IMG/VR virus record: IMGVR_UViG_3300032288_005529
Coordinates: 1 to 38,701 of that record
Direction: 5' to 3' (one strand)
DNA length: 38,701 nt
Source: a virus
Below the pieces are notes generated by a model. That model saw only the letters and a list, made by a program, of their open reading frames with translations. It ran no database searches and had not been told where the DNA came from. Position numbers and translations under genes: made by a program. Positions 5,277 to 37,142 of this stretch are shown in pieces. Numbering within the stretch: the stretch's first letter is position 1; each line of letters starts with the position of its first letter.

Positions 5277-6107
5277 TTAAAATGGGAGAGATTCTTTGGC
5301 GATCTCCGAATCAGATGGCGGTAAAGCGGCTAGTATTGCTTCCGGTCGGATTAATGGTCGCTTGGGCTGTAAACCCTGCCAAACAAATTCTTTCGTTTTT
5401 ACGTCGTATCCTACGAAATACTCTTTCCAATTTTCGAGGACTGGGACTTCATAGCTAACAACCTTGCAGGCTGGTGATTTTGTTTTGTCTCCCGCCATTT
5501 CCCGCTTAACCTCAAAAGCAAATACACACAAGGACTTGAATGTCATGGCTTTTTCACTAGCAGGGATTCCGCAAGTAATAGCGTGGCAGGTTGTAATTTT
5601 CTGGATAAATTCCTGCCATTTCTGTGAAAATGACGCTTGAGCCGCGCCTTTGAGTTTTAAACTCAAAGGAACTTGATGTAGAGGCTTATTTTCTTTGTCT
5701 AGCAACATAACTTCAAAGGCTTGAAAGTTAGTAAAGTTTTCATCTGCTCCATGCACGGCTTTTTTGTAGTAACCGGTGAAAACATTATTCTGTTGTTCTT
5801 TAGATGCAGATTTATCTAATGCTAAAACCGGAGTCCGAGGGCATACCAACATCCGCATTTTATTAAGCAAAATGCCTTGCTCGGTTTCTCCTGAACTTTC
5901 AAATGAATAGTCAACCAATGTTTTTTCGTCAAAGTCTAACCATCCAGCTTTAGCAGCTTGATTTATTTCAATAAAATACCCGCATTCTTTAGGTGTTGCC
6001 CCTCTTAATGCTTGAATACGAGGAAGTAGTGCGTTAGGGTCTAAATACTCCTCAGACGCAAACTCATCTTGGATCTGCATTGATTGGTCTTGAATTACTG
6101 AAGTCAT
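5277..6107 (-). CDS. DUF5895-like cyanobacterial phage protein
   Basis: A 276-residue soluble protein. The opening EYLDPNALLPRIQALRG followed by TPKECGYFIEINQA and the internal MRMLVCPRTPVLALDK resemble DUF5895 proteins found in cyanobacteria and their phages; I recall the family by pattern and cannot verify it. It is the longest protein of the left early operon. The 5' leader (6108-6199) is one copy of a repeated RNA element, and there is no clear Shine-Dalgarno sequence. Confidence 0.65.
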   Translation of the reverse strand: MTSVIQDQSMQIQDEFASEEYLDPNALLPRIQALRGATPKECGYFIEINQAAKAGWLDFDEKTLVDYSFESSGETEQGILLNKMRMLVCPRTPVLALDKSASKEQQNNVFTGYYKKAVHGADENFTNFQAFEVMLLDKENKPLHQVPLSLKLKGAAQASFSQKWQEFIQKITTCHAITCGIPASEKAMTFKSLCVFAFEVKREMAGDKTKSPACKVVSYEVPVLENWKEYFVGYDVKTKEFVWQGLQPKRPLIRPEAILAALPPSDSEIAKESLPF

Positions 6108-8480: not shown

Positions 8481-8805
8481 TCCTAATTACAGGCTCTTAA
8501 ACCTCCGACGTGACTTGGAACGACGGAATCTAAGCCAACTCAAACAACTAGCAAAAAAACAAGAATTGGGTGTTAAGGATGCGGCGGCAATAGGGAGTGC
8601 CCAACGCCGATCTACTTGGATTAAATTGCTGATTCGGAACGCACCGCAGCAACAACCTCAACCGGAAAAGCCTAAACCGGAAAAGCCTAAACCGGAAGTT
8701 AAAAAACACAAACAACCCGCAATCAAGCAAAGAACTGTCTACGGGTTGAGACGGCTTCCTGTAATTAAAACAACTGTTTACTCCTATGGGGGAGTTAAAT
8801 CATGA
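8461..8805 (+). CDS. Hypothetical basic protein with Pro-Glu-Lys repeat
   Basis: About 114 residues from ATG 8461 (alternative ATG 8473 or GTG 8404). The N-terminal part (RRNLSQLKQLAKKQELGVKD) resembles a SAP/Rho-N-like helix pair that binds nucleic acid. A linker of tandem PEKPK units (DNA repeat around 8665-8700) and a basic C-terminus follow. Stop and next start overlap as ATGA. Function unknown; likely DNA-associated given its place in the replication operon. Confidence 0.6.
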   Translation: MAEEMPNPNYRLLNLRRDLERRNLSQLKQLAKKQELGVKDAAAIGSAQRRSTWIKLLIRNAPQQQPQPEKPKPEKPKPEVKKHKQPAIKQRTVYGLRRLPVIKTTVYSYGGVKS

Positions 8806-9080
8806 AAATCGAAATACCACTTTTTCTGGATGATATGCCTCTATCTCCAGAAGCATTTAGGGTCTATTTTGCGATCGCTCGAAGCATGGCGGAGTTTGAG
8901 GAATTTCCGTCAATCGAGGGTATCACCGCCCGGTGCTTCGGGAAGAAATACGCATTGGGCCGGACGCATACAACCTTGGCCCTGACTGAGTTAATCAAGC
9001 GGAATTTAATCAAGGGCGAACCCGGTAGCTACCAAATCACGCAGCCTGAAGAGTGGAAGATTCCGGGGGGTGTGGCGTGA
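8802..9080 (+). CDS. Winged-helix-like replication-operon protein
   Basis: A 92-residue protein. LSPEAFRVYFAIARSMAEFE is followed by a recognition-helix-like TTLALTELIKRNLIKGEPGS and a wing, as in phage replication/primosome winged-helix proteins. Overlaps both neighbours by four bases (ATGA upstream, GTGA downstream). Probably a DNA-binding accessory of replication initiation; inferred. Confidence 0.6.
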   Translation: MKIEIPLFLDDMPLSPEAFRVYFAIARSMAEFEEFPSIEGITARCFGKKYALGRTHTTLALTELIKRNLIKGEPGSYQITQPEEWKIPGGVA

Positions 9081-9442
9081 AAGTCGTCAGAAGTAAAACC
9101 CCATCAATTGAAGGTATTCTGTCCAATTCAATCTTAAGTTTTAAAGCAACGGGGTTGTTGTTGGTTGTTTTAAGTCAACAAGACCATGAAGGATTGGACT
9201 TTAAATTTTTACGAGACGTTAAAAACGATGGCTCTCTTTCAGTTTTAAGTGGATTGTCTGAGCTTGAGAGAGAGGGTTATTTACTTTACTTCCGATGGAG
9301 AGACGGACAGGGAAGATGGGAGTCTGAATATGTTTTCTTTGAGACTCCCCAACTTAGGGACGAATACCTCCGAATGCTTTCGGGCGAGGAAAAGCAACGC
9401 CTTTCAGTTATTAGCAAACCCACCAAAAGAGGTGCAGCATGA
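9077..9442 (+). CDS. Winged-helix-like protein
   Basis: 121 residues from GTG 9077, whose TG is shared with the previous stop (GTGA). SILSFKATGLLLVVLSQQDH and SVLSGLSELEREGYLLYFRW fit a winged-helix of the DnaD/replication-initiator class often found upstream of phage initiators. Overlaps the next gene by four bases. Not assigned to a named family. Confidence 0.6.
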   Translation: MKVVRSKTPSIEGILSNSILSFKATGLLLVVLSQQDHEGLDFKFLRDVKNDGSLSVLSGLSELEREGYLLYFRWRDGQGRWESEYVFFETPQLRDEYLRMLSGEEKQRLSVISKPTKRGAA

Positions 9443-10644
9443 AACCCTCTATTCTAGCTGCTTTTACAGAAGCAATACCCTATATCCCTGGACTGAGACA
9501 ACAAACAGGGAGTGTAGTCTCAGCAATCCTTATGATGCAACTTGAATATCGTTTTGCCAAGTATCCAGAAGGATTTTATAAGTTTTTGGAGCCACCTCAA
9601 AATGGACATCAAGACTACAGAGATGGGGACAGTTGGGTTGAAGAATTGGCTTTTTCCAAGGATGAGTTTAGAACGGCGTTTGACAAAATTGGAGTCCGTT
9701 ACAGTTCTAAGTCTCAATACGAAGAAGCCAAGGTTAAAGGATCAGAGTTTGGGGAAGGCTACTATTGCTCTTACCTTGATCGTCAATTGGGTCTGACTTT
9801 CTATTTCCGCAATCACGACAAGGTAAACAACCTGGTTTCTCGTGTCGAACCAAGTCAAAAATCGATGGGGTTCCGCCCTCGAAAATCCAGAAATCAACCA
9901 TCAGAAGTTGGATTACGGGAAATCGGGAATCCCAATTTACGGGAAATCGGGAATCCCAATCTCTGTAAATCGGGAATCCCAATCTCTGTAAATCGGGAAT
10001 CCCAATTTACCGATCCTTATATAGATATTTCAGAAAAGACTTCAGAAAAGACTTCAGAAAAGATCCCCCCTACCCCCCAAGGGGGAACCGGACTTTTCTC
10101 TCAAGAAGGGGAAAAGTCAACAGGAGAGGAAGACCGCAACCGCAAGATAGTTGAACCTCCTCAAGTCTTAAAACAGGACTTACCTGAACAAATCAAGTCT
10201 TCTTCCGGTGATCAGACTTCCCCCGCGCCGACACCAATTTTTAGTGTCCACAAGAAGGAACATCAGGATCGGATTGTGGCGGTATACCAATCCAACAAAC
10301 CCGCCGCGTGGTTGCCCGTTAATAACCTCCACAGGGATATCAGAGTGATGGTGGATAGCCTTTTATCCTCTGAGAACTTTCAAGGCGATTTAGAGGCATT
10401 TTTGACGCGCTTAGAGAATGCGCTGAAAGAAATCAATGATCCAACTACCAAGTTCGGCTGGTTCCGTAATCAAGGAAATCTGGGACTGAGAACCCTACTA
10501 TCCAATTACGGTCGGCATTTGATGGAGATTTCCGATCGCTTTCTTGAGCGACAAAAACCACAAGTTCAATCCAACACGCTCCCCGATTGGGCCTTAGAAG
10601 CTCAAAGGGAAATTGAAGCCAGACAACTCAAAAAGGCAGGTTAA
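9439..10644 (+). CDS. Replication initiator-like protein carrying internal iterons
   Basis: A 401-residue protein. The N-terminal domain (residues 1-135, beginning MKPSILAAFTEAIPYIPGLR) looks like a winged-helix replication protein. The middle (about 150-260) is low complexity and encoded by the iterons (REIGNPNL repeated) and the SEKT repeats. A helical C-terminal domain (about 285-380) follows. Position before a loader-like gene and DnaB matches lambda O or phage DnaD-like initiators, and the origin-like repeats lie inside the gene as in lambda O. I infer initiator function from this layout; no diagnostic motif is visible. Confidence 0.65.
   Translation: MKPSILAAFTEAIPYIPGLRQQTGSVVSAILMMQLEYRFAKYPEGFYKFLEPPQNGHQDYRDGDSWVEELAFSKDEFRTAFDKIGVRYSSKSQYEEAKVKGSEFGEGYYCSYLDRQLGLTFYFRNHDKVNNLVSRVEPSQKSMGFRPRKSRNQPSEVGLREIGNPNLREIGNPNLCKSGIPISVNRESQFTDPYIDISEKTSEKTSEKIPPTPQGGTGLFSQEGEKSTGEEDRNRKIVEPPQVLKQDLPEQIKSSSGDQTSPAPTPIFSVHKKEHQDRIVAVYQSNKPAAWLPVNNLHRDIRVMVDSLLSSENFQGDLEAFLTRLENALKEINDPTTKFGWFRNQGNLGLRTLLSNYGRHLMEISDRFLERQKPQVQSNTLPDWALEAQREIEARQLKKAG
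9920..10064. repeat. Candidate replication origin: four iterons plus three 12-mers
   Basis: Four identical 17-bp iterons AAATCGGGAATCCCAAT start at 9920, 9944, 9967 and 9990 (spacing 24, 23, 23). An A/T-rich stretch and three tandem 12-mers TTCAGAAAAGAC (10029-10064; last base differs in the third) follow. Iterons next to direct repeats in an A/T-rich zone is the layout of lambda ori and of many plasmid origins: initiator binding sites plus an unwinding element. Confidence 0.7.
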
Positions 10645-10646
10645 AA

Positions 10647-11006
10647 ATGGACATCAACATCTTGACTAAAAACATCCAAGACCTTCAGGCACACTTCACA
10701 AAACTGCAAAACTTATCCCCCCGAACCCTAAAAGCGTGGTGTGTCCACTTCAGCGAAAATCTCACAGAAATCCAACTAGAGCGAGCCGTTGACGCGGCAT
10801 TGGTTAAGTATGGCTGTGATCACGACCTATCAGCGCAGCAATTAGTCGAGTTAGGGCGAGGAGCTCCATCGGAGCAAAAAGAATTCAAGCCAGAAGTAAT
10901 CGAGGTGGGAATTTCACCCGAACAAGCCGCCAAGAATAAAGCACTTCTGAACGAATTGATCGCCACACATATTAAAAAATCATTAAACGGAGCCGTTAAC
11001 AAATGA
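10647..11006 (+). CDS. Candidate helicase loader
   Basis: A 119-residue helical protein. LKAWCVHFSENLTEIQLERA followed by VDAALVKYG and a disordered tail resembles the small loader/inhibitor proteins (G39P type) placed just upstream of phage DnaB helicases. Stop and the next start overlap as ATGA. Function inferred from size, shape and position between initiator and helicase. Confidence 0.55.
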   Translation: MDINILTKNIQDLQAHFTKLQNLSPRTLKAWCVHFSENLTEIQLERAVDAALVKYGCDHDLSAQQLVELGRGAPSEQKEFKPEVIEVGISPEQAAKNKALLNELIATHIKKSLNGAVNK

Positions 11007-12310
11007 TTAACCTGCAAAACATAGAAGCGGAAGAAGCGGTTTTAGGGGGAATTCTTCTCGATCCAGAAGCTATTAGCCGGGTGGCTGAAACATTACAACC
11101 CGAATCCTTTTCTCTCAGACAACACCAAATGATTTTCAAAGCAGGATTAGCCCTGCATTCTCAAGGTAAACCTACCGATTTAATGACCGTTTCCTCTTGG
11201 TTAGCGGATCAAAAATTGCTAGAGCAAGCGGGCGGACAATTAAAATTAGTTCAATTGATCGGCGGTACTGTTTCCGCTACCAATATCGATCAATACGGGT
11301 TATTGATTTCTGACAAACAAGTCAGAAGAGACTTAATTAAATCTGCTTACAAAATTATTGAACTGGCAGAAGATACAAGCCAAGATTTAGAGACGATTCT
11401 CCAGAAATCTGAGGAGCAAATAGCCAGTATTTCTCAGGCCAGATCTGAACAGGATTTAGTCCCGATTGGCGAAACCTTGATCGACACTTTTCAGGAGATT
11501 GAGGATCGGAGTACGGGAGCTATTCCCCCTGGTATTCCCTGCGGCTTCTATGATTTGGATGCGATGACAGGAGGTTTCCAACGTTCGGACTTGATAATCG
11601 TGGCGGGAAGACCGTCAATGGGCAAGTCCAGTCTAGCGGTGAATTTTGGATATGCGATCGCTAAAAAAAGATTGCCCGTTGCAATCTTCAGTTTAGAAAT
11701 GTCCAACGGGCAATTAGTTCAACGGATGTTATCGAGTGAAGCAAAAATTGAAACTAACCGCATTCGTTCAGGTCAAATTCGAGAGTCCGAGTGGGAGCCT
11801 CTGACCGAAGCTATTAGCAACTTAGCTGAATTGCCAATTTACATTGATGATTCAAGCAATCCCAGTGTTGGCGAAATAAAGAAAAAAGCCAAAAAAGTAC
11901 AGATTGAAAATGGTGGAAAACTGGGATTAATTTTGATTGATTACCTGCAATTAATGGAGGGAGGAAGCGATAACCGGGTGCAGGAATTATCAAGAATTAC
12001 ACGCGGGTTAAAAGGGTTGGCAAAAGAGTTGGACGTACCTGTTATTGCACTATCTCAATTAAGTCGAAGCGTTGAACAACGCACTAACAAGCGCCCAATA
12101 TTATCAGACTTGAGAGAATCGGGAAGTGTCGAGCAGGATGCGGATTTAGTGATGATGATTTATCGAGATGACTACTATAATCCCGACACTTCAGATCGAG
12201 GGATTGCGGAAATCATTCTAGCCAAACACCGGAACGGCCCCACCGGAACCGTCAAACTTTTATTTGATAACCAGTTCACCCAGTTCAAAAATTTAGCGAG
12301 ATCTAATTAA
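11003..12310 (+). CDS. dnaB: Replicative DNA helicase, DnaB family
   Basis: A 435-residue ring helicase that unwinds DNA at the phage fork. The N-terminal domain (NIEAEEAVLGGILLDPEAIS, residues 5-24) is the usual primase-interacting part. The RecA-type domain has Walker A AGRPSMGKSS (about 201-210), SLEMS (230-234) and Walker B LILIDYLQLM (about 309-318). DLRESGSVEQDADLVMMIYR, with the sensor/arginine-finger region, follows. Full normal length. Part of a tightly overlapping operon. Confidence 0.95.
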   Translation: MINLQNIEAEEAVLGGILLDPEAISRVAETLQPESFSLRQHQMIFKAGLALHSQGKPTDLMTVSSWLADQKLLEQAGGQLKLVQLIGGTVSATNIDQYGLLISDKQVRRDLIKSAYKIIELAEDTSQDLETILQKSEEQIASISQARSEQDLVPIGETLIDTFQEIEDRSTGAIPPGIPCGFYDLDAMTGGFQRSDLIIVAGRPSMGKSSLAVNFGYAIAKKRLPVAIFSLEMSNGQLVQRMLSSEAKIETNRIRSGQIRESEWEPLTEAISNLAELPIYIDDSSNPSVGEIKKKAKKVQIENGGKLGLILIDYLQLMEGGSDNRVQELSRITRGLKGLAKELDVPVIALSQLSRSVEQRTNKRPILSDLRESGSVEQDADLVMMIYRDDYYNPDTSDRGIAEIILAKHRNGPTGTVKLLFDNQFTQFKNLARSN

Positions 12311-13257: not shown

Positions 13258-13828
13258 AGGTAGACCCTGGACAGATAAAGAAATTGAAAGACTGCTTATC
13301 CTAAGAAATGAGGGATTAGCATTTTGTCAAATTGCTAAAAAACTAGGAAGACCCATTTCGTCAACCAAGGGGAAATATCACAATATTAAAAACGTCAAAG
13401 TCTCCGATAACCCGAAGCGTGATTGGTCGAGCGAAGAGATTGAGTTGTTAGTAGCTTTGTCCGAAACTTTACCCCGGACAAAATTATTAATAGCTTACAA
13501 CAATGCGGCTGTTAGCAATGGGTTTGTTAAGCGTTCGATTCCCTCTATTCGGAAGCAATTACACAAGCTCGGACAAAGCATGAAACCTCAAATGGGTTGG
13601 TATACTATTGAATCAATTTCAATAGGACTAGGATTCTCTCGACACAAAGTCAAAAGTTGGGTGAATACCGGAAAAATCAAAACCCACAACGAGGGAAAGC
13701 ACACTTATATTCGCACTAGCGATTTAATTAAATTCATTGTGGATCATCCCACTTGTATCCTCAATATTTGTGAAGATGGCTTGCAGTGGTTCTTAGCTCT
13801 TTTGAAAGAAGAAAGGGAGGCTAAATAA
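13247..13828 (+). CDS. SANT/Myb-like plus MerR-like DNA-binding protein
   Basis: A 193-residue protein with two tandem SANT/Myb-type helices in the first 100 residues (PWTDKEIERLLILRNEG; DWSSEEIELLVALSETLP). A second helix-turn-helix near 115-160 (YTIESISIGLGFSRHKVKSW) is typical of MerR/excisionase folds. Multi-module DNA binding is likely. Stop overlaps the methylase start as TAATG. Confidence 0.65.
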   Translation: MTGRGRPWTDKEIERLLILRNEGLAFCQIAKKLGRPISSTKGKYHNIKNVKVSDNPKRDWSSEEIELLVALSETLPRTKLLIAYNNAAVSNGFVKRSIPSIRKQLHKLGQSMKPQMGWYTIESISIGLGFSRHKVKSWVNTGKIKTHNEGKHTYIRTSDLIKFIVDHPTCILNICEDGLQWFLALLKEEREAK

Positions 13829-14874
13829 TGCCTACCTCAGCAACATTGTTCACAGGCGGTGGCGGTGCAGATATTGGGTTAGAAATGGCGGGTTTTCACT
13901 CCCTATGGGGAATCGAACGAGATGAGGGAATCGCAGCCGCCGCCCAATTGAATTTACCCGAATCCCAAATTATTAATGCTTGTGTCTCCCAAGTTGACCC
14001 CCGGCTTTTAGAGCCAGTAGATCTATTGTGGCTTTCACCCCCTTGCCAACAATATTCACAAGCCCGCAGGGGTGATTTAGAAGATCACCAAGACAAAGAC
14101 GCAGGGGTATTTTGCCTCCCCTATATTGAAGCCCTTTGTCCGAAGTGGATCATTCTTGAAAATGTTCCGGGTTATGTCAAAGCAACATCCTTTAAAGAAA
14201 TCCTGGGATGCCTGCAACGATTAAATTATTTTTTCCACTGGAAAGTCATAAACGCGGCTGATCATGGCGTTCCTCAAAACAGAAACCGCTTGATTTTATG
14301 GGCAGTCAGAGAGGGTTTAAAACTCCCATTTTTCCCAGTTCCTCAACGTCGGATCGGATGGTATGAAGCCATATCTTACAATCTGACCGCGTTGCCCGAT
14401 TCAAAATTAGCGGACTGGCAAATCAAACGATTAGAGCAAGTCAAGGACAAGCTAACAGGAATCAGTCTGGTAGATGTGGGCAAAAATTGCACCCGTCCGG
14501 CAACAGTCAAGCCCAAAGACGAGCCGAGTTTTACTATTACAACGGATCACGTCAATAGCCACGCTCCCTTAGTCTTGATGCCTCGATGCGGAGCCAATAT
14601 TCAGTCCGCTACCCCATCTTTACCTCACGAACCAAGCTTTACAATCCGTGCTTTTGGAGAGGGTCGCAATACCCACTGGGCTGATGTGGTGAATTTGGAA
14701 GACTTAACCGCTAAACAAATCACCCCCGAAATTAGCGCGATTCTTCAGAGTTTCCCTGAAAGCTACCTCCTCCCAGAATCCAAATCTCTAGCCCAACGGA
14801 TTATCGGAAATGCAGTTCCCCCGCTATTAGCTAAAGCTTTGGGGACGGCTTTGATTGAATCCAAAGCTGTTTAA
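13828..14874 (+). CDS. DNA (cytosine-5) methyltransferase
   Basis: A 348-residue C5-MTase. Motif I LFTGGGGADIGLEMAG (7-22); catalytic PCQQYS with C73; ENVPG (about 111-115) for motif VI; QNRNR (150-154) for motif VIII; a C-terminal RIIGNAVPP motif X. Transfers methyl from SAM to cytosine in a site set by its target domain, which cannot be read by eye. No matching restriction gene is adjacent, so protection of phage DNA from host restriction is the likely role. Confidence 0.93.
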   Translation: MPTSATLFTGGGGADIGLEMAGFHSLWGIERDEGIAAAAQLNLPESQIINACVSQVDPRLLEPVDLLWLSPPCQQYSQARRGDLEDHQDKDAGVFCLPYIEALCPKWIILENVPGYVKATSFKEILGCLQRLNYFFHWKVINAADHGVPQNRNRLILWAVREGLKLPFFPVPQRRIGWYEAISYNLTALPDSKLADWQIKRLEQVKDKLTGISLVDVGKNCTRPATVKPKDEPSFTITTDHVNSHAPLVLMPRCGANIQSATPSLPHEPSFTIRAFGEGRNTHWADVVNLEDLTAKQITPEISAILQSFPESYLLPESKSLAQRIIGNAVPPLLAKALGTALIESKAV

Positions 14875-18147: not shown

Positions 18148-19977
18148 TTAGTTACAGAGGTTTGCTTGAGACAGCGCATTTAACACTGAACTCCGTAGAT
18201 TGTCGGGTGCGCTACTGTTCCGGTAGCCATAGAATTGTTGGCAAGAATAAGAATTTCCTGCTTTGATCATCTCAACGGTATGAGTAACTCGCCCTTGTTC
18301 CCGAACCGCGAGGATAATAGAGCGACCGCTATTGACCGCTTGCCCATATCCCCCGACGCAGTGAGACAGTTGCTCACCCCATAGCTTCAGTTGAGCGTTA
18401 CAGGTTGGGATTTCCAGTTCCCAACTACCATCAACGGCACAGAGTCCTTGAACCCGCTTGAAGTCAGGGTTGACTTTCAATTCGTAGTCCGGTTGACGAC
18501 GGACATATTCTTTGGCTAGTGTTTCGTGAACAGTTAACCAACACCGCACCCGACCCAGTTCAGGGAAACCCCCATCAGTTTCGCCTAATTGCTTGTACAG
18601 ATACCCGGTATCGCGGACTAGGTTGTTGTCAACGGGGTTGACTTCACCCCGAACCTTAAAGGTTGTGGTCTGAATCATTCTTAAAGCAACCTCTGGGGAA
18701 AGTGATTTCAAGAAAGCGATCGCATCTTCCTGAAACCCGATAACGGAATCTTCAGGAAGATTCAGATATTTTTGCAATAGGTCGGCGTTCCCATTAACTA
18801 ACACCATCGCCCATTTGCGGGGTGTAGGGGAGCTATTTTGGAATGCTCTGACCGTCGCTTTTCCTGCTGTACCGAATAGGTGTTCACAGGCTTTAGCGGG
18901 TGACAGGAAATCAACCAAACCCAATAACAGTTGATCAGAGTTTTTGGACTGATTTAAATCAGTCCAGGGAAGCGACTCATGGGGAAGATTTAGGACAACT
19001 TCTAGTAGTGTTTGATAGTATTTTTTGGCGTATCGGTCGCCGTTGCCATACACCATAAACAGAGGCAACAGTTCAACAAATGACATCCGAGATAGTTCTC
19101 GGAATTTTGCCCAAAAAGCCATTGTTAGTTCATGGCGGTTGTAGGTTTCCGCATGGTATGGGGACTTCCATCCCAGGGAATGATAACCTTTCCATCCAGT
19201 GCTAACGCCTTGATTAATTCCTTCCCATGCCAGTTTTGCTAGAAAGCGGCTTTTTACCGACATCCGACCAATACGTTCGGCAATCCCTTTCGGGAGGTCT
19301 CCACACCATTTCCATGCACGGGCGCAGTCAGGGAGTCGCCATATATTACCAATGCGGTCGTTGACCTCAAAGGCGTTGGCGTTGACCATTACCTTCTTAA
19401 CCCATAACGGGAGTCGGTTAAAGTTGGGGGTAGTAGCAATTGCCAACACCACTGGCTTGTGAACCTGGTAACAGGAATCCCAAGACCGTTTGGGATTCAT
19501 CACCTCTTTGTAGAGGTTTAAAAAGCGTTCGGCTTGCCATTCGTAGCGGATACCGATATCCAGCAGCGCACCCGAAGCAAGCCTAAATTGAGCATCGGGA
19601 TATTCATCATGCCCCAACTTACAAGTTATTAAGTCTTCAGTCCGTGATCTTGCCCAGTACCGGAGTTCTTTGACGGCAGCCCAATCTTTTTTTGCCTGGC
19701 TTAAATTAAATTGTTTGTTGCGTGTTGTGGCGTTGTAACACTGCCACGCTAAAAATTTTGCACCTTGGCTTTTCCCTTCTAACAGTTGGAGGAATTGCTC
19801 ATACCCATCTTCGGGTAGGGACTGGATAAACTCAATTTCCTCAATGGTTAAATCTCGTGAGTTTAGCTGAAACGTATTTTCTAGTCGCCCCGCTATGAGG
19901 TTAACCCCTTCCTCAAAAAGAGCTTCCTGTAAAGTTTGACTATTGCGGACACGCGGGGATTTTTTTGAGTTTGACAT
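18148..19977 (-). CDS. PcfJ-like protein
   Basis: A 609-residue protein. The C-terminal segment LWGEQLSHCVGGYGQAVNSG, ILAVREQGRVTHTVEMIKAG and YSCQQFYGYRNSS matches the PcfJ-like domain (L.HCVG.Y ... R......T.E ... Q..G..N). That family is known from conjugative plasmids and scattered mobile elements; its biochemical role is not established. The rest is helical and unassigned. Transcribed from the promoter-plus-leader repeat at 20007-20088. Contains a HIP1 site (18716-18723). Confidence 0.65.
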   Translation of the reverse strand: MSNSKKSPRVRNSQTLQEALFEEGVNLIAGRLENTFQLNSRDLTIEEIEFIQSLPEDGYEQFLQLLEGKSQGAKFLAWQCYNATTRNKQFNLSQAKKDWAAVKELRYWARSRTEDLITCKLGHDEYPDAQFRLASGALLDIGIRYEWQAERFLNLYKEVMNPKRSWDSCYQVHKPVVLAIATTPNFNRLPLWVKKVMVNANAFEVNDRIGNIWRLPDCARAWKWCGDLPKGIAERIGRMSVKSRFLAKLAWEGINQGVSTGWKGYHSLGWKSPYHAETYNRHELTMAFWAKFRELSRMSFVELLPLFMVYGNGDRYAKKYYQTLLEVVLNLPHESLPWTDLNQSKNSDQLLLGLVDFLSPAKACEHLFGTAGKATVRAFQNSSPTPRKWAMVLVNGNADLLQKYLNLPEDSVIGFQEDAIAFLKSLSPEVALRMIQTTTFKVRGEVNPVDNNLVRDTGYLYKQLGETDGGFPELGRVRCWLTVHETLAKEYVRRQPDYELKVNPDFKRVQGLCAVDGSWELEIPTCNAQLKLWGEQLSHCVGGYGQAVNSGRSIILAVREQGRVTHTVEMIKAGNSYSCQQFYGYRNSSAPDNLRSSVLNALSQANLCN

Positions 19978-22678: not shown

Positions 22679-23659
22679 ATGGTAACACAATTAGACCTGT
22701 TTGGGAATCATGTTGATGTTCAAGCTAAAGATCCGATCTGGATTTTAAAAAATAGACCTGCACCCGATCCAAACTCCCCCATAGTTGTGAGTTATGGAGG
22801 AGGAACCAACAGCACCGCCATGTTAATTGCAATGGTTTTAAAGGGCATTAAACCCGATTTAATTCTGTTCGCAGATACCGGGGGGGAATTGCCGGAGACG
22901 TATGAATGGGTTAATACGTTTTCTGATTGGTTGCATAATCAAGGATTCCCATCTGTGACTGTTGTAAAACGAGGTAAAGTAGAAGCAGTCAGGGAGCGCA
23001 AGGCGTTAGTTGTTAAATGGGATGTAATAACGAAATCTTTTGATTGGTTCCTTTTATCTCTGTATTTAGGCATCTTGTCCAATGGAAATCAATTTTTTGA
23101 ATACTCTAATTTGTACGAAAAGTGTATAACATTAAAAGCTCTACCATCAAGGGTTTTTAATAAAGGGGAATGCTCTATTAACTATAAAATAAAACCTCAA
23201 CAGTCCTATTTAGAGGGCTTTTACTCTGATATTATAGGGGACACCAAAATCAGAATGTTTATAGGTTTTCATTCCGAAGAAATAGGGAGATTAATCAATA
23301 AAAAGGAAGATCCTTTTGAGACGGAATTTTATAGAAAAGAATATCCATTAATAGAGTGGGGTTTAAATCAAAAAAATTGTATTAGTTTAATAGAATCTAT
23401 TGGTTTAGGTGTCCCTCCGAAATCAAGTTGTTTTTTTTGCCCAAATAGGAAGCCCTCCGAAGTTCTTTTTTTAAAAGAAAAATACCCTGAACTTTACGAT
23501 GCAGCCTGTTTTATGGAGGAAAATTTTGCAGATAGAGCTAAAGAGATTGTGGGATTGGGGCGAACTTGGAGATGGTTGGATTTAGATAAATTGTCAGCAT
23601 TAGAGCAACTCATAATTGACAATAAACAGGAATCAAGAAGATGCGCGTGTATTGATTAG
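22679..23659 (+). CDS. PAPS reductase-like PP-loop (adenine nucleotide alpha-hydrolase) protein
   Basis: A 326-residue protein. The PP-loop VVSYGGGTNSTAMLIAMV (about 36-53), the LILFADTGGELPETYEWV segment and a C-terminal SCFFCPNR Cys pair are those of phage PAPS-reductase/DndC-like proteins. They activate a substrate with ATP, in some relatives for sulfur or nucleotide modification. Single gene between a terminator and tmk. Whether it modifies DNA, tRNA or sulfate cannot be told from sequence alone; no DndB/D/E partners are in the window. Confidence 0.8.
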   Translation: MVTQLDLFGNHVDVQAKDPIWILKNRPAPDPNSPIVVSYGGGTNSTAMLIAMVLKGIKPDLILFADTGGELPETYEWVNTFSDWLHNQGFPSVTVVKRGKVEAVRERKALVVKWDVITKSFDWFLLSLYLGILSNGNQFFEYSNLYEKCITLKALPSRVFNKGECSINYKIKPQQSYLEGFYSDIIGDTKIRMFIGFHSEEIGRLINKKEDPFETEFYRKEYPLIEWGLNQKNCISLIESIGLGVPPKSSCFFCPNRKPSEVLFLKEKYPELYDAACFMEENFADRAKEIVGLGRTWRWLDLDKLSALEQLIIDNKQESRRCACID

Positions 23660-23737: not shown

Positions 23738-24373
23738 TCAAAATAACCTTGCCTTCAAATATTCCCGATCCTCCTCTGGAATCAGGGGAATAATTAACTT
23801 TTTAATCTCTTCAAATACCAGATCCTCCGACTGGTTAGCATCGATAACAGTCCAACCATGTTGACCTGCCAACTCCAGATATCCAAGCCGTACACGCTCT
23901 AAGAATGGGCGATCGCTTTCCATACAATCCAAGGGTTCTGTTTTGCGACTAAGGGCATTCTCCACAAAGCAATCCAAGATAATCGTTAGGTCGGGCTTTA
24001 ATCCTTCTGTTGCCTCACTGTTGAGCCGTTGGATGCGTGGGATATCTAACCCGTGTCCATAGCCTTGATAGGCGAGTGTTGATGGAGTGAAGCGATCGCA
24101 GAATACCCAAAACCCACAATCGAGCATGGGTTTGATTATAAACTTACAATGCTCCCGTCTATCTTCTATTAATAAATCCAATATTAATAAATCCAACTGT
24201 CTCACTGGGGTGAAGTGGGTTTCCTTTAGCTGTTTTCTAGTCTTTTTGTCAAAGGGTTCCTCAGTTCTGTAGAGCTTGATCTTAGTATTAATTTTTAACC
24301 ACTCGATTAATCGAGTCAAAATCGTACCTTTCCCACTTCCATCTATACCGTCAATCACAATAAATTTGTGCAT
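23738..24373 (-). CDS. tmk: Thymidylate kinase
   Basis: A 211-residue P-loop kinase that phosphorylates dTMP. Walker A IDGIDGSGKGT (7-17), RTEEPFDKKTR (about 36-46) and DRFTPSTLAYQGYG (about 93-106) are all present; LID-region residues follow. Likely pairs with the phage NrdB to raise dTTP during replication. Two HIP1 sites lie inside. An inverted repeat AGGGTGT/ACACCCT (24390-24423) lies in its promoter region. Confidence 0.9.
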   Translation of the reverse strand: MHKFIVIDGIDGSGKGTILTRLIEWLKINTKIKLYRTEEPFDKKTRKQLKETHFTPVRQLDLLILDLLIEDRREHCKFIIKPMLDCGFWVFCDRFTPSTLAYQGYGHGLDIPRIQRLNSEATEGLKPDLTIILDCFVENALSRKTEPLDCMESDRPFLERVRLGYLELAGQHGWTVIDANQSEDLVFEEIKKLIIPLIPEEDREYLKARLF

Positions 24374-26792: not shown

Positions 26793-27626
26793 TCAAAATA
26801 AGCTTAATTGTTTAAATTCCGGTATATTTTCTTGATTAAAATTTTCTAAAATTGTATCGTTTTCTACCGTTTCCCTTGGTTGGTTTACTCGTTTGCAAGC
26901 TATGTCAAAATATTCCTTTTCCTTCTCAATACAGATATAGTTTCGGTTTAATTCTTTGCAAGCGATCGCTGTTGTTCCACTACCACAAAAGGGGTCTAAA
27001 ACTAAATCACCAGGGTTTGTTATCCATTGAATCAATGTAGAAATAAGTTGAACTGGCTTTTGCGTGGGGTGTACGGTTCTTTCGTTTACCTTCATACAGG
27101 GTTTATTGGGTGACTCAATAACGTCTGTTTGATGCCTAGTTCCGTGATTAACCTCAACAAAACCTTCTGGATTTCCCATGTTAAGCTGTTTCCATGCGCT
27201 TCTTTTTAACCCAGGAGATCTTTTTATATATGGAACTCCTGGTTTAAGTATTTTATTAAAAGTTAGTTTTTCTACAGTGTAGTTTGGATACGCAAAAACG
27301 GCATACATTTCCATTTGCGAAGGCGGTTTCTTGGCATTATAAGATCTAAATCCATGATTGGGTTTTAACCACGCTCCTGTCCATCTTATAGGGAAATATA
27401 GAGATAACTGTGCTAACAATTCTATACTTCCAAAACTTGCTATCTGCCCGTTTATTTTGAGTTTTAATAACAATAGTTTAGCCAATGTTTCAATACAATA
27501 ATTCGTTGTATCAAATTCTAACTTCGTTGTTAGATAAGGCGGATCAGTAATCACAGCATCAATTGACTTGTCAGGAATATCCTTTAAAACTTCAAAACAA
27601 TCGCCATGAATAATTTGATTAATCAT
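26793..27626 (-). CDS. DNA adenine-N6/cytosine-N4 methyltransferase
   Basis: A 277-residue MTase of the beta-like order: catalytic DPPY (28-31, in VITDPPYLTTK) precedes the SAM-binding DPFCGSGTTAIACKELNR near 215-232. HPTQKPVQLI (about 187-196) lies between them. Target site unknown. With the C5-MTase at 13828 the phage carries two solitary methylases and no visible restriction enzyme. A HIP1 site (26962) lies in the gene. Confidence 0.93.
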   Translation of the reverse strand: MINQIIHGDCFEVLKDIPDKSIDAVITDPPYLTTKLEFDTTNYCIETLAKLLLLKLKINGQIASFGSIELLAQLSLYFPIRWTGAWLKPNHGFRSYNAKKPPSQMEMYAVFAYPNYTVEKLTFNKILKPGVPYIKRSPGLKRSAWKQLNMGNPEGFVEVNHGTRHQTDVIESPNKPCMKVNERTVHPTQKPVQLISTLIQWITNPGDLVLDPFCGSGTTAIACKELNRNYICIEKEKEYFDIACKRVNQPRETVENDTILENFNQENIPEFKQLSLF

Positions 27627-32654: not shown

Positions 32655-34382
32655 TCACCCTAAAACAATTGCATATTTTTTCGCAGAGGATTCAATATAA
32701 CTTAAAATATCTGATTCCATTTCTATAATACCTTGATGAGAAATAGAGGTCACGGTATTCTCGTAGTAATACGCCACAAAAACCAGATAATTTCCACTTA
32801 AGAAACTAGAAGTCCCATTAATGGCACTGATTGAATTAATAACAGGAGTATACAGACCCAATTCAGACACTGGAACAGAAGATGACGATCCGCCTACTCC
32901 TGTCAGCGTTAAGATTTGGGTCGTTTCGTCAGGTTCCAATGCGACAGAGTACAAATAACCCCCCACCCAAACCCGGACAGAAGTTGCGTTAAATATCCCT
33001 TTTGCATTTCCAGCAATAACATCAGGGTAGTCAGATCTGATAGCTGTAGGACGCGTTAAATTGATTTGTAATTGAGTCGAAGAGCTTAACGCTATCTCCC
33101 TCGCAAAAACGGGTTTCCCGATGCCATTTAAGGTTCCAATCTTTGCTCTTAAAACTTGACCTGCATTTAACTCAGAAACAACTAAACAAGTGCCATTCCC
33201 GTTAATAGCAACGATTTGATTAGCAGTGTTGGCAACTAAACCAAAGACCCCACGCTCTCCCACCCCAATAAATGATCGCCCATTGACAATTCCTGATCCC
33301 GATAAGGCGATCGCACTTAAACCCGTATCAGGGACAATTCGACGTAAATCTAACCCCGCACTAATTAAATTGCCAATGATTGCAGCCACACCCGAATAGT
33401 AGCCAACACGCTCCCCGATTGACAAACTGACCTCTATCTGTGCATTCTCGGCTACTCTACCCCCTAAACTTGCCACGTCAACCTGAATCTCCACAGCAAC
33501 TAGATAGGCATATCCCGATGGCAAATCTTTTTCTAAAATTAATCCCGAATTGTTGTTGGTATAAGTAATTCTTTGATTAATTCCCGTCATCTCCCCACCC
33601 CCAGAGGCGGAGGTATCCAGAGATCCGTCGGTCAATTTGACGTATCCTAAAAATGTCAAATTGACCGCACCTGCACCAAAAAACAGATCAGTTAAGTCCG
33701 TATCCCCCCACGATATCCCTACTGATATGGATCTCCCCGCAAAATAGGGAGATGTCGTTTCGTTTCTGAGCCAAAATTTAACAGGCTCTGAGTAGCTTCG
33801 ATCAACAGCATAATCCGGTCGGATAATGATTTGTTTTTGCTCTTCTGTAAACTCAGAGAGTTGGCGATCGCACCCATTAATTGACCGAGTGGAGGATATT
33901 AAGGTTTGAAATTCCTGGGGATAAACAGCGACCCATTCCCCTCCTACCCATGCCCTAATTTCTCCCCACGCATCAACATAAACCCGCATCCCTTCAATTT
34001 TATTAGTGGGAAGTTGAGAGGTGTTTCCTATGCTTAATTGAGTTTTAAAGTGATCGTCTTTATTAAGTATTATTGTTCCAGGGAGAACATCTAAAGCGGA
34101 ATAAGTGGCAATAACGTAAGCAGCTAAATAGGTGTTTGTGGGGCTAAACGAAAGGATATAAGAAATTGCTTCGTAACCTTCACAATTGCAGTCAGGAACC
34201 GTCACACTCAATCCTTGACCTGCGGTTAAATTGATGGTGGTCGGAGTCGAATATAAGTTGAATCCTTGTCGGTTTTGCATCTGCCAATACAGAGATCCAC
34301 TAACCGCAGTTGTTAGACTTCCGACTGTAACGTTAACAACCGGGGCGGATATTTGAGATGGAATCCCAGCATAAGTTAGCAT
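32655..34382 (-). CDS. Tail/fibre structural protein
   Basis: A 575-residue beta-rich protein (begins MLTYAGIPSQISAPVVNVTV). The central KIEGMRVYVDAWGEIRAWVG followed by GEWV, and SGYAYLVAVEIQVDVASLGG, are typical of phage tail proteins that present receptor or host-recognition domains. No named family by eye. Two HIP1 sites inside. Part of the leftward tail cluster. Confidence 0.65.
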   Translation of the reverse strand: MLTYAGIPSQISAPVVNVTVGSLTTAVSGSLYWQMQNRQGFNLYSTPTTINLTAGQGLSVTVPDCNCEGYEAISYILSFSPTNTYLAAYVIATYSALDVLPGTIILNKDDHFKTQLSIGNTSQLPTNKIEGMRVYVDAWGEIRAWVGGEWVAVYPQEFQTLISSTRSINGCDRQLSEFTEEQKQIIIRPDYAVDRSYSEPVKFWLRNETTSPYFAGRSISVGISWGDTDLTDLFFGAGAVNLTFLGYVKLTDGSLDTSASGGGEMTGINQRITYTNNNSGLILEKDLPSGYAYLVAVEIQVDVASLGGRVAENAQIEVSLSIGERVGYYSGVAAIIGNLISAGLDLRRIVPDTGLSAIALSGSGIVNGRSFIGVGERGVFGLVANTANQIVAINGNGTCLVVSELNAGQVLRAKIGTLNGIGKPVFAREIALSSSTQLQINLTRPTAIRSDYPDVIAGNAKGIFNATSVRVWVGGYLYSVALEPDETTQILTLTGVGGSSSSVPVSELGLYTPVINSISAINGTSSFLSGNYLVFVAYYYENTVTSISHQGIIEMESDILSYIESSAKKYAIVLG

Positions 34383-34402
34383 ATTTTATCCTTAATATTC
34401 AT

Positions 34403-34606
34403 TTAACCTTGTATAACTCGCCACGTTCCTTTATGCTTGAATGCGATCGCTTTACCCGTTACAACACCCTTACAAATAAAACTTTTCCCCATTCCGGTAA
34501 ACATTGATCCGCTACTTCCCAAAGGGTAGGCTTTACCAATTAAAACAGAATTATTAAGCTGTTTTAAGTTTTCCATTATCTTTTTAGAGGTATCTAACGT
34601 CGCCAT
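34403..34606 (-). CDS. Hypothetical protein, 67 aa
   Basis: MATLDTSKKIMENLKQLNNS followed by short beta strands (GKSFICKGVVTGKAIAFKHK) like a small SH3-type fold. Its start overlaps the stop of gene 34594-34767 by 13 bases. Confidence 0.6.
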   Translation of the reverse strand: MATLDTSKKIMENLKQLNNSVLIGKAYPLGSSGSMFTGMGKSFICKGVVTGKAIAFKHKGTWRVIQG

Positions 34607-34767
34607 GCTACGGATTCCCTAATCGTTCTAGTTTGGTTTGTTGCTGTTGCGGTTTGCCCTTTATATTTTCCAATAATTGAACTCCCTGAAACAATCCAGC
34701 TAGGTTGTCCTTTCTCAAGGATTTTTAGTAACTTTTCCGCTAATTCTCTCTCTTTTGGAGATGTCAT
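34594..34767 (-). CDS. Hypothetical protein, 57 aa
   Basis: A small gene missed by length filters: ATG 34767 with CCGGAG upstream. The product MTSPKERELAEKLLKILEKG then QPSWIVSGSSIIGKYKGQTA is a basic helix plus a strand. Overlaps the 34403-34606 gene start, so it belongs to the same unit. Confidence 0.6.
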   Translation of the reverse strand: MTSPKERELAEKLLKILEKGQPSWIVSGSSIIGKYKGQTATATNQTRTIRESVAWRR

Positions 34768-34769
34768 TT

Positions 34770-37142
34770 TTAATTTCTCCGGTTAGGAACAGTAGAAGGT
34801 AAAACCCCTCCCAAGATTATTATAGTCGCATTCTTATCTATTTTAGGATCTTCTCCTTGATTGCTGTTCCCGTCATTATTAAAGTTAGCTAATTCCTCTC
34901 TAACCTCTACTTTTACGCTTCTATTATCCCATAAGCCAAGAGTTAACTGAGTGCCATCTGAAGTACAAATCGGATCTAAGCCATAGATATTTTGACTTCC
35001 ATCAAATTGTAGAGTATAAGACGAAGAAAGTACCCTGAATCTTCCCGTGAATTTATCCCCACTAAAAGTACAAAAATCTCCCCCTTCAATATTTGGGAAG
35101 TGCCAGCTTACTGTTCGAGTTTCTTGGGTGCTTTGTAGGGTACTGATCTTTAATTGGGTTTCTACTGCCTTTTCAGCTTCCTCTAGTGTTGAAGCAGCCC
35201 CAAAACTTAGACTCTCTCCCCCCTCTGACGCCCATTCAGGGATTGAATCAGAGTAGACAAAGTAGCGTTTTCCGACACCTTCTTTTGTCGTTACAACACT
35301 TTTTGTATAGGTTTTTTTGGGTTGCTGTTGCTCCCATGTTGTTTTCCTGTATTGAGCTTCTGGGGGTCTACCCTGAATCTCCCGATATCGAACATTCTCA
35401 ACCCCGTCAACAAACCCTGCTCCCGATGCGGTTAACTCCACTATTTTCTCGGTTGAATATTCGTCGTTCTTTTTAGTCCAAATTGATTGATAATAGCTTT
35501 CTTCTCCTGTAACAAGTGCTGGCAGAGGATCTTCGCTGGTTGAGTCGGGGTGAGCCATTGTCGCAATCGAAGACGCTTGGCGAGATTCCGTCCAGACCAG
35601 CATCGGCTCCACAAAGTCCATGTCAGCAGTGATTAAGCCCACTTTCAACCTTCGATTGGAACCTTCTACTGGGGGTGTGACCTTTGAGAACAATTTTCGC
35701 TGCATTTGCTCGTCCATTTCATCCCAAAAAACCCACTCAATGCTGTAAGGGACTGTATCCTGTTCATAGTCTGCGCGCATTGATTTGATGTAAAAGCTAG
35801 TTACATCTTGCCTGTTTATTTTTTGAAATTTAACTACTTTCCACCAAGGATTTTCGTCTATCATTCCCTCCCCATCAACAAAAGTCATCTCACGGGTATC
35901 AGTATCCCCTCCCGGTTCCTCCTGTTGAAATCGACTTAATTTCCATCCAGACGTGACGATACTTGTTAAGTATTTAGCATTTGAAACCTTAGATTGAAGT
36001 CCCCTCACTGAATCACCACTTCCTAAATATTTTTCATAATCTGGATGCACAGTTAACTGATATTCTATTTCTTTTGTGTTCTGAGGTGTAGTAAGTGTGT
36101 AAATCGGTGGTGAAATTGCCTGATAATAATAACGAGTTTCCTGATATTCGATTAGTTTCCAGTGTCTCCACGGATCAAGAATCATTAATCCATCAGGCGT
36201 TTCAATAAAATCTTTTAAGTAATAAGCAAATCCCCAGGTTTCAATAACCTCTCTGTCTGTTTGCCCGTCAATTGAGTAGGTTGTTCTCCTGACTTTCTTG
36301 GGGCCGGATTGGTCTAAGTTGCTGTCTAAACTCCTTAAAATAGCTGTTCCTTTTGGTGGGTTTGTTACGTCTTGATCATATTCATATTCAGTCTTGTATT
36401 CAGGTTCTTTTTCCTCGAATTCGGGAGGTAAATTTGGGTCAACTTGCTCTTTGTTACTTTCCCTTGGAGTCCATGTCAACGCGGCTCCATTGTAATAGGG
36501 AGCCACACCTAGTTGATTAGAGCCATCTGATATTTGTTCTCCCCAACTAAAGCTATAGCTAGATCCTGAATTGGCTTTTTTAAGGTCAACATTCACCCCA
36601 TAGCAGACATAACAGCCCTTTATTCGAGCATATTCTTCTAATACATCGTCAAGGCTCATCATTGTTTCTGAGTTGACATCCTCAGCCCAGATATCAAAGC
36701 TTCCCGACAGGTTCACACCTGCTTTTGAAGCCAATTTACTCGCCGATATTTTTCCCGTTCTAATATCCACTAAAGGTTTTACCTTTACCTTGCGAGCGCA
36801 TAAAACCTTCCACCATCCCTCTAAATTAATTGAGACAGTATAGACATTAATCTGTTGGGTTCCTCGATAAACGTATCCCGTCCGACTGTAGCTATAACCG
36901 CCATCGGGAGCAACTCTAAATGGAATCCCGTCTATGGTGATTCTTGTATTCCTTGAAGGATTATAAACTTGCTTAAATCCTCCAATATTATCTTCTGTTA
37001 TACCTTCGTAGTTAATCGAGGCACTGGGATGTTCCTCAAAACTCTTTGTAACAGTTAATGACCCTAGCCGAAGAGGAATAGGTAAACTAGGAGGGTTTTT
37101 GATGATATTATTTTTAAATAATGGACGGGAAACAATAGGCAT
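34770..37142 (-). CDS. Baseplate hub / tail tip-like structural protein
   Basis: A 790-residue soluble protein with an N-terminal beta domain (LRLGSLTVTKSFEEHPSASI; VYTVSINLEGWWKVL), a long central part and a C-terminal beta domain (VSWHFPNIEGGDFCTFSGDK; FRVLSSSYTLQFDGS). Size, composition and place next to fibre genes suggest the tail tip or baseplate hub. No catalytic motif seen. Followed closely upstream by the 37147 gene. Confidence 0.6.
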   Translation of the reverse strand: MPIVSRPLFKNNIIKNPPSLPIPLRLGSLTVTKSFEEHPSASINYEGITEDNIGGFKQVYNPSRNTRITIDGIPFRVAPDGGYSYSRTGYVYRGTQQINVYTVSINLEGWWKVLCARKVKVKPLVDIRTGKISASKLASKAGVNLSGSFDIWAEDVNSETMMSLDDVLEEYARIKGCYVCYGVNVDLKKANSGSSYSFSWGEQISDGSNQLGVAPYYNGAALTWTPRESNKEQVDPNLPPEFEEKEPEYKTEYEYDQDVTNPPKGTAILRSLDSNLDQSGPKKVRRTTYSIDGQTDREVIETWGFAYYLKDFIETPDGLMILDPWRHWKLIEYQETRYYYQAISPPIYTLTTPQNTKEIEYQLTVHPDYEKYLGSGDSVRGLQSKVSNAKYLTSIVTSGWKLSRFQQEEPGGDTDTREMTFVDGEGMIDENPWWKVVKFQKINRQDVTSFYIKSMRADYEQDTVPYSIEWVFWDEMDEQMQRKLFSKVTPPVEGSNRRLKVGLITADMDFVEPMLVWTESRQASSIATMAHPDSTSEDPLPALVTGEESYYQSIWTKKNDEYSTEKIVELTASGAGFVDGVENVRYREIQGRPPEAQYRKTTWEQQQPKKTYTKSVVTTKEGVGKRYFVYSDSIPEWASEGGESLSFGAASTLEEAEKAVETQLKISTLQSTQETRTVSWHFPNIEGGDFCTFSGDKFTGRFRVLSSSYTLQFDGSQNIYGLDPICTSDGTQLTLGLWDNRSVKVEVREELANFNNDGNSNQGEDPKIDKNATIIILGGVLPSTVPNRRN

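Follow-up and report, generated by a model that had tools for sequence, protein, structure and literature searches.

What are four exact copies of a 17-bp sequence doing in the middle of a protein-coding gene? This question is raised by a 38,701-bp IMG/VR virus record, IMGVR_UViG_3300032288_005529, which is probably a fragment and was analyzed over its full length (the window). The first-pass annotation proposed a replication origin embedded in an initiator gene, and those of its sequence-level predictions that were tested came out as expected. We consider it highly probable (∼0.87) that the region from ∼9914 to 10085 is a theta-type origin of the lambda/SPP1 type, embedded in the gene that encodes its own initiator. 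The features concerned are as follows.

9439 to 10644, plus strand: putative initiator gene, 401 aa, delimited as an ORF with homologues
9439 to 9888, plus strand: predicted N-terminal DNA-binding domain, probably a winged helix (AlphaFold2 model, VIA-align)
9920 to 9936, plus strand: iteron 1, codon phase 1, encoding EIGNPN
9944 to 9960, plus strand: iteron 2, codon phase 1, encoding EIGNPN
9967 to 9983, plus strand: iteron 3, codon phase 0, encoding KSGIPI
9990 to 10006, plus strand: iteron 4, codon phase 2, encoding NRESQF
10007 to 10064, plus strand: AT-rich stretch with three tandem 12-mers, a candidate unwinding element (GC content, codon identity to relatives)
10065 to 10085, plus strand: C-rich element CCCCCCTACCCCCCAAGGGGG, at a module joint and common to phages of both N-domain types

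The protein is laid out as an N-domain (approximately residues 1 to 150), a linker, and a C-domain (approximately residues 268 to 380), the linker being encoded by the iterons, the AT-rich stretch, and the C-rich element. The four perfect iterons at 23- to 24-bp spacing that the annotation had listed were confirmed as exact copies of AAATCGGGAATCCCAAT at all four positions, spaced by 24, 23, and 23 bp in the middle of the gene. When up to three mismatches were allowed, AAATCGGGAATCCCAAT matched the 38.7-kb window six times, against 0.32 expected; all six matches lie inside the array, two of them being iterons 1 and 4 read on the reverse strand, and 0 of 100 shuffles reached this count. No other 12-mer is present in four or more copies in the window. 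Chance was judged on these two window-wide counts; a test that shuffled codons and counted 10-mer copies did not discriminate, because chance alone gives some 10-mer up to five copies. Each iteron is near-palindromic (AAATcGGGAaTCCCaATTT, 8 of 9 pairs), with the full 19-mer present in copies 1 and 4, and the third iteron of the relative L018, like that of L063, is the perfect palindrome AAATCGGGATTCCCGATTT. This dyad symmetry fits, as expected, the predicted binding by a dimer.

Repeats of this kind might be the by-product of a recent tandem duplication in a disordered linker, with no function at the DNA level. Some local duplication or homogenization did happen, as indicated by the 24-bp unit shared by iterons 1 and 2 and the 23-bp unit shared by iterons 3 and 4; furthermore, the region encodes a linker, and the 12-mers that follow are in frame (SEKT). 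Against this account, the spacings place the same iteron in three codon phases, and the repeat therefore appears to be constrained as DNA, not as protein. The annotation had stated that the iterons force the peptide REIGNPNL on the protein, which applies to copies 1 and 2 but not to the differently translated copies 3 and 4; its broader suggestion, that selection acts on the DNA rather than the protein, agrees with both the three codon phases and the codon usage of relatives.

The closest relatives, IMG/VR loci L006 to L018, encode initiators with ∼77% protein identity to that of the window and carry the iteron copies in register within the gene, at positions 482, (506), 529, and 552. Codons for the same amino acid are identical to those of the window in 50 to 56% of cases in the N-domain (59 to 66 of about 119) versus 93 to 100% (27 to 29 of 29) across the iterons, AT spacer, and 12-mers, with a Fisher P of 9e-6 to 9e-8 per pair. 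By part, this identity is 100% in the AT spacer and 90 to 100% in the 12-mers; the latter are in frame, so the codon-phase argument is inapplicable to them, and it is their codon identity that points to a constraint at the DNA level. The homologues thus show the reverse of what the annotation had named as evidence against itself, namely, protein repeats kept with scrambled codons. Within the array, 57 to 58 of 68 core positions are identical for L013 and L009 versus 7 of 19 spacer positions (P of about 1e-4), a contrast that is only marginal for L006 and L018 (P of 0.03 to 0.06). The divergence of the spacers argues against a recent transfer of the whole region. In addition, the 18-mer TCGGGAATCCCAATTTAC occurs in 14 IMG/VR contigs, all 14 of which carry this N-domain gene. 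That relatives with diverged spacers keep the cores in place, with near-total codon identity there, and that distant homologues carry unrelated arrays of the same period, makes an accidental duplication very improbable as the whole explanation.

These distant homologues of the N-domain were found in betaproteobacterial, fusobacterial, and alphaproteobacterial plasmids, in a Niameybacter (Firmicutes) genome and its relatives, and in diverged viral contigs. In L024, L025, L028, L030, and L065 to L068, a repeat array is located in the linker just after the N-domain, and the carriers of such arrays include diverged viral contigs, a Firmicutes genome, and betaproteobacterial plasmids; the repeat sequences are unrelated, and the period is the same 23 to 24 bp or its double (46 to 48 bp). 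The N-domain region of these homologues, scored in the same way, yielded no array. Among the more distant homologues, roughly half have no significant 22- to 25-bp array at the linker position. An embedded origin thus appears to be common but not universal in the N-domain family.

Downstream of the iterons, the 12-mer TTCAGAAAAGAY starts at 10029, 10041, and 10053, in two exact copies and one matching at 11 of 12 positions. The annotation was right about three tandem 12-mers in an A/T-rich stretch, but the A/T-richness is modest: the 40 bp from 10013 to 10052 are 27.5% GC, which places them near the 9th percentile for the window; this is unexceptional for this genome and counts against the origin reading. 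The AT-rich element adjoins the iterons and is kept in relatives. A single-stranded hairpin in the AT-rich/C-rich stretch was considered and dropped (folding z of -1.7, not significant). The C-rich element CCCCCCTACCCCCCAAGGGGG occurs once in the window, and most cyanobacterial-type loci, of either N-domain type, have a single strict copy; wherever it is present, it immediately follows the AT-rich stretch on the 3' side. The strict pattern is absent from L065, L066, and L068. A dispersed repeat was rejected on these counts, the one exception to a single copy per locus being L014, with one further weak match, at 10158. Given the single copy and the fixed position, we interpret the element as either origin associated or an exchange joint; a conserved protein motif, P-T-P-Q-G-G, could alternatively explain it.

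The surrounding genes include the following.

8802 to 9080, plus strand: small HTH_36/lambda-O-N-like protein, 92 aa, encoded at the start of the replication genes
9053 to 9442, plus strand: stand-alone initiator N-domain of the PaV-LD type (HTH), 129 aa (phrog_4707, replication initiation protein, 2.2e-13)
10647 to 11006, plus strand: predicted helicase-loader gene, 119 aa (alignment; fold of the L009 relative)
11003 to 12310, plus strand: DnaB-type replicative helicase, 435 aa (Pfam DnaB_C, 2.7e-106)

The gene order is thus initiator, loader, DnaB. The annotation had placed a loader candidate and DnaB just downstream of the gene carrying the origin; DnaB is certain from its Pfam match and is 80% identical to the DnaB of Planktothrix phage PaV-LD, the nearest isolate, and the modeled loader of a relative resembles SPP1 G39P and lambda P. 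The fold test was run on the 195-aa loader of L009, and the shorter window copy is linked to it through alignment alone. The L009 model superposes on SPP1 G39P (1no1) at 1.9 Å over 64 of 67 residues (Z of 8.5); its top Foldseek match is lambda P (9oa1), and G39P and lambda P come ahead of all other matches. In the alignment, the window protein (119 aa versus 189 to 196 aa in relatives) shows an in-frame loss of ∼76 aa from its middle and keeps the G39P-like N-domain and the C-terminal tail. Because the L009 model matches both reference proteins, the prediction of a G39P/lambda P-like helicase loader at 10647 to 11006 is well supported.

The position of the array among these genes bears on another possibility, that the iterons are operators through which the protein binds its own gene and controls the replication operon, with replication beginning at another site, such as a second origin. 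Not every binding site is an origin, the oriR of SPP1 lies outside gene 38 (PMC6316719), and some homologues are without an in-gene array. However, the array here is located in the middle of the gene, over 480 bp into the coding sequence; the AT-rich stretch directly adjoins it and is conserved with it; the loader and DnaB follow immediately 3'; the iterons are swapped together with the N-domain of a replication initiator; and no second iteron copy was found outside the array in the window with up to three mismatches. Operators without an origin are therefore considered unlikely.

The putative initiator itself (ORF 9439 to 10644) has no Pfam, PHROG, or NCBIfam match, although the C-terminal part of one homologue matches the PHROG family "replication initiation O-like" (phrog_678) at 2.6e-9. 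A PDB search with the sequence or a profile returned nothing relevant, and Foldseek against the PDB with the N-domain model (AlphaFold2, pLDDT of 76) gave weak matches only, with E above 0.2. A second look with VIA-align, in which alone these matches surfaced, ranked the initiator N-domains 4pql and 4pt7 first, followed by SarA/MarR-type winged helices; the Z of 6.8 (rmsd of 4.2 to 4.5 over 97 to 99 residues) is below the trust level of 8. We take 4pql and 4pt7 to be RepA_N plasmid proteins. The fold is thus probably a winged helix, and its nearest neighbors may be these two plasmid-type initiator N-domains, both assignments being suggestive only. By sequence, the protein is outside both the lambda O and RepA_N families: the lambda O profiles (TIGR01610, PHROG O-like) gave zero matches to the ORF, Pfam gave no PF06970 (RepA_N) match, and hhalign against three RepA_N proteins gave a probability of 0.2%. 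The N-domain would accordingly represent a sequence-novel, unannotated DNA-binding family, probably of the winged-helix type.

Comparison with PaV-LD and other relatives shows that the replication genes of the window are a natural chimera. The DNA of the window matches L009 from 9431 to 10092 and again from 10957, and it matches PaV-LD and L019 from 10058 to ∼10850; the two blocks of homology overlap at 10058 to 10092, over CCCCCCTACCCCCCAAGGGGG. L009-type loci combine N-domain A, iterons A, C-domain X, and loader X, and PaV-LD and L019 combine N-domain B, iterons B (AACGGA..CCGT type), C-domain Y, and loader Y. The window has N-domain A and iterons A with C-domain Y and loader Y. L009 and L019 are 86 to 95% identical on both flanks of the exchanged block. 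In these swaps, the iteron type travels with the N-domain and the N-terminal part of the loader travels with the C-domain, in agreement with the logic of lambda O and P, which predicts that iterons track the N-domain and that the loader tracks the C-domain. The displaced N-domain B persists in the window as ORF 9053 to 9442, which is 43% identical to the N-terminal part of PaV-LD ORF005R, overlaps the start of the initiator gene (ATGA), and may be either a remnant left by module exchange or a small regulatory protein. As a possible target of this orphan domain, the PaV-LD-type iteron AACGGANAANCCGT was sought elsewhere in the window and rejected, its matches being at the chance level. A profile comparison of the two N-domain types, based on few sequences, detected no similarity. 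The small ORF 8802 to 9080 matches HTH_36 (0.0014) and, below the cut-off, TIGR01610 phage_O_Nterm (0.0036); it is 46% identical to PaV-LD ORF004R. PaV-LD, L009, and L019 each have a counterpart immediately before the initiator gene, and L018 has none.

A module joint just beside the array might suggest a recombination site in place of an origin; a site for partition or incompatibility is another alternative, since plasmids use iteron arrays for control as well. However, no ParA/ParB-like gene was found among the neighbors examined, a ParA score inside DnaB being at the chance level; the neighbors are replication genes, and an AT-rich element closes the array, in the manner of an origin. Such a site is scarcely credible as the sole role of the array, and an embedded origin remains the preferred reading.

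Several known origins are close working parallels by analogy. The lambda ori in O combines an AT-rich region of 40 bp with four iterons that are inverted repeats (PMC5043065, PMC7466680), and the O protein recognizes the origin with its N-domain and meets the loader with its C-domain (PMC5043065, PMC7466680, PMC6022878). The window resembles it in having four dyad-symmetric iterons inside the initiator gene, an AT-rich region on their downstream side, and a loader gene directly after (PMC5043065, PMC7466680, PMC6022878); it differs in the iteron sequence and in encoding its own DnaB, whereas lambda uses that of the host. The likeness to lambda drawn by the annotation thus holds for the architecture of iterons, AT-rich region, and loader but not for the N-domain, which is not lambda O by sequence. 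SPP1 oriL, in gene 38 and served by the loader gp39 and the helicase gp40 (PMC6316719), shares the repeats and AT-rich region in the initiator gene, the order of loader and then phage DnaB, and, as judged from the L009 model, the loader fold; SPP1 has a second origin, oriR, whereas no second origin was found in the window. In plasmid pSK41, ori lies centrally inside rep, which encodes a winged-helix N-domain, a linker specified by ori, and a separate C-domain, and the staphylococcal plasmid pPR9 is a natural N-domain swap (PMC5703833) of the same kind as seen here. The pSK41-type RepA_N plasmids thus share the ori inside the initiator gene and the ori-encoded linker, but the pSK41 C-domain contacts the DnaG primase (PMC5703833), whereas a loader and DnaB module follows here. 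Finally, PaV-LD (ORF004R to ORF007R) shares the C-domain, loader, and DnaB (∼74 to 83% DNA identity over blocks) as well as CCCCCCTACCCCCCAAGGGGG; it differs in having the other N-domain (phrog_4707/HTH_36), which in the window is only a separate small gene. The PaV-LD relative L022, with a 97% identical N-domain, has ∼14- and 25-bp repeats in the linker.

In the proposed mechanism, the winged-helix-like N-domain of the 9439 to 10644 protein, probably as dimers, would bind the four near-palindromic iterons. Their spacing of 23 to 24 bp (about two helical turns) would align them along nearly the same side of the helix, and the nucleoprotein particle so formed would strain and open the adjoining AT-rich stretch with its 12-mers. 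The C-domain of the initiator would then hold the loader, which would deliver the phage's own DnaB to the opened strands and so allow the region to be used as an origin.

General origin markers and the other contents of the window were also surveyed. The GC-skew check suggested by the annotation came out negative, with no inflection at 10 kb; the cumulative skew has its maximum near 24 kb, where it follows the change of coding strand, and skew was rejected as an origin marker because it tracks the coding strand only. DnaA boxes were likewise discarded, with 28 one-mismatch sites versus 30 expected and none in the origin. Two DNA methyltransferase genes are present (13828 to 14874 and 26793 to 27626), one of the C5-cytosine type and one of the N6/N4 type. 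The metabolic genes at 1674 to 2339, 22679 to 23659, and 23738 to 24373 encode a ribonucleotide reductase small chain (221 aa, with the domain matched in part only), a phosphoadenosine phosphosulfate reductase, and a thymidylate kinase, respectively. A 609-aa protein (18148 to 19977) has a C-terminal PcfJ-like domain (3.7e-11), from a family that takes its name from a conjugative plasmid protein. Two large proteins of 575 and 790 aa (32655 to 37142) match the unknown-function families phrog_31840 and phrog_15468, over the first half of these longer profiles only. The leftward gene block encodes a DUF5895 protein (5277 to 6107; 2.9e-47), and L018 has a protein of similar size at a comparable position.

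A search of the literature for iteron-bearing origins in cyanophages returned nothing relevant. The locus would extend an established type of system to a new group of hosts, and its DNA-binding family would be new. More speculatively, the N-domain, iterons, and AT-rich stretch (9431 to ∼10085) might form a self-contained replicon-specificity cassette that travels across phyla among phages and plasmids, with the C-rich element of cyanobacterial phages being both a part of the origin and the joint for cassette exchange, and with the displaced N-domain (9053 to 9442) able to persist as a replication modulator; we regard this extension as possible but doubtful. The natural chimeras split the initiator into two halves, one reading the origin and the other reading the loader. 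The analysis offers a likely function for a protein family that has no Pfam, PHROG, or NCBIfam model and is found in phages, prophages, and plasmids, and, for phages that infect bloom-forming cyanobacteria, it provides a testable candidate origin together with a candidate minimal replicon.
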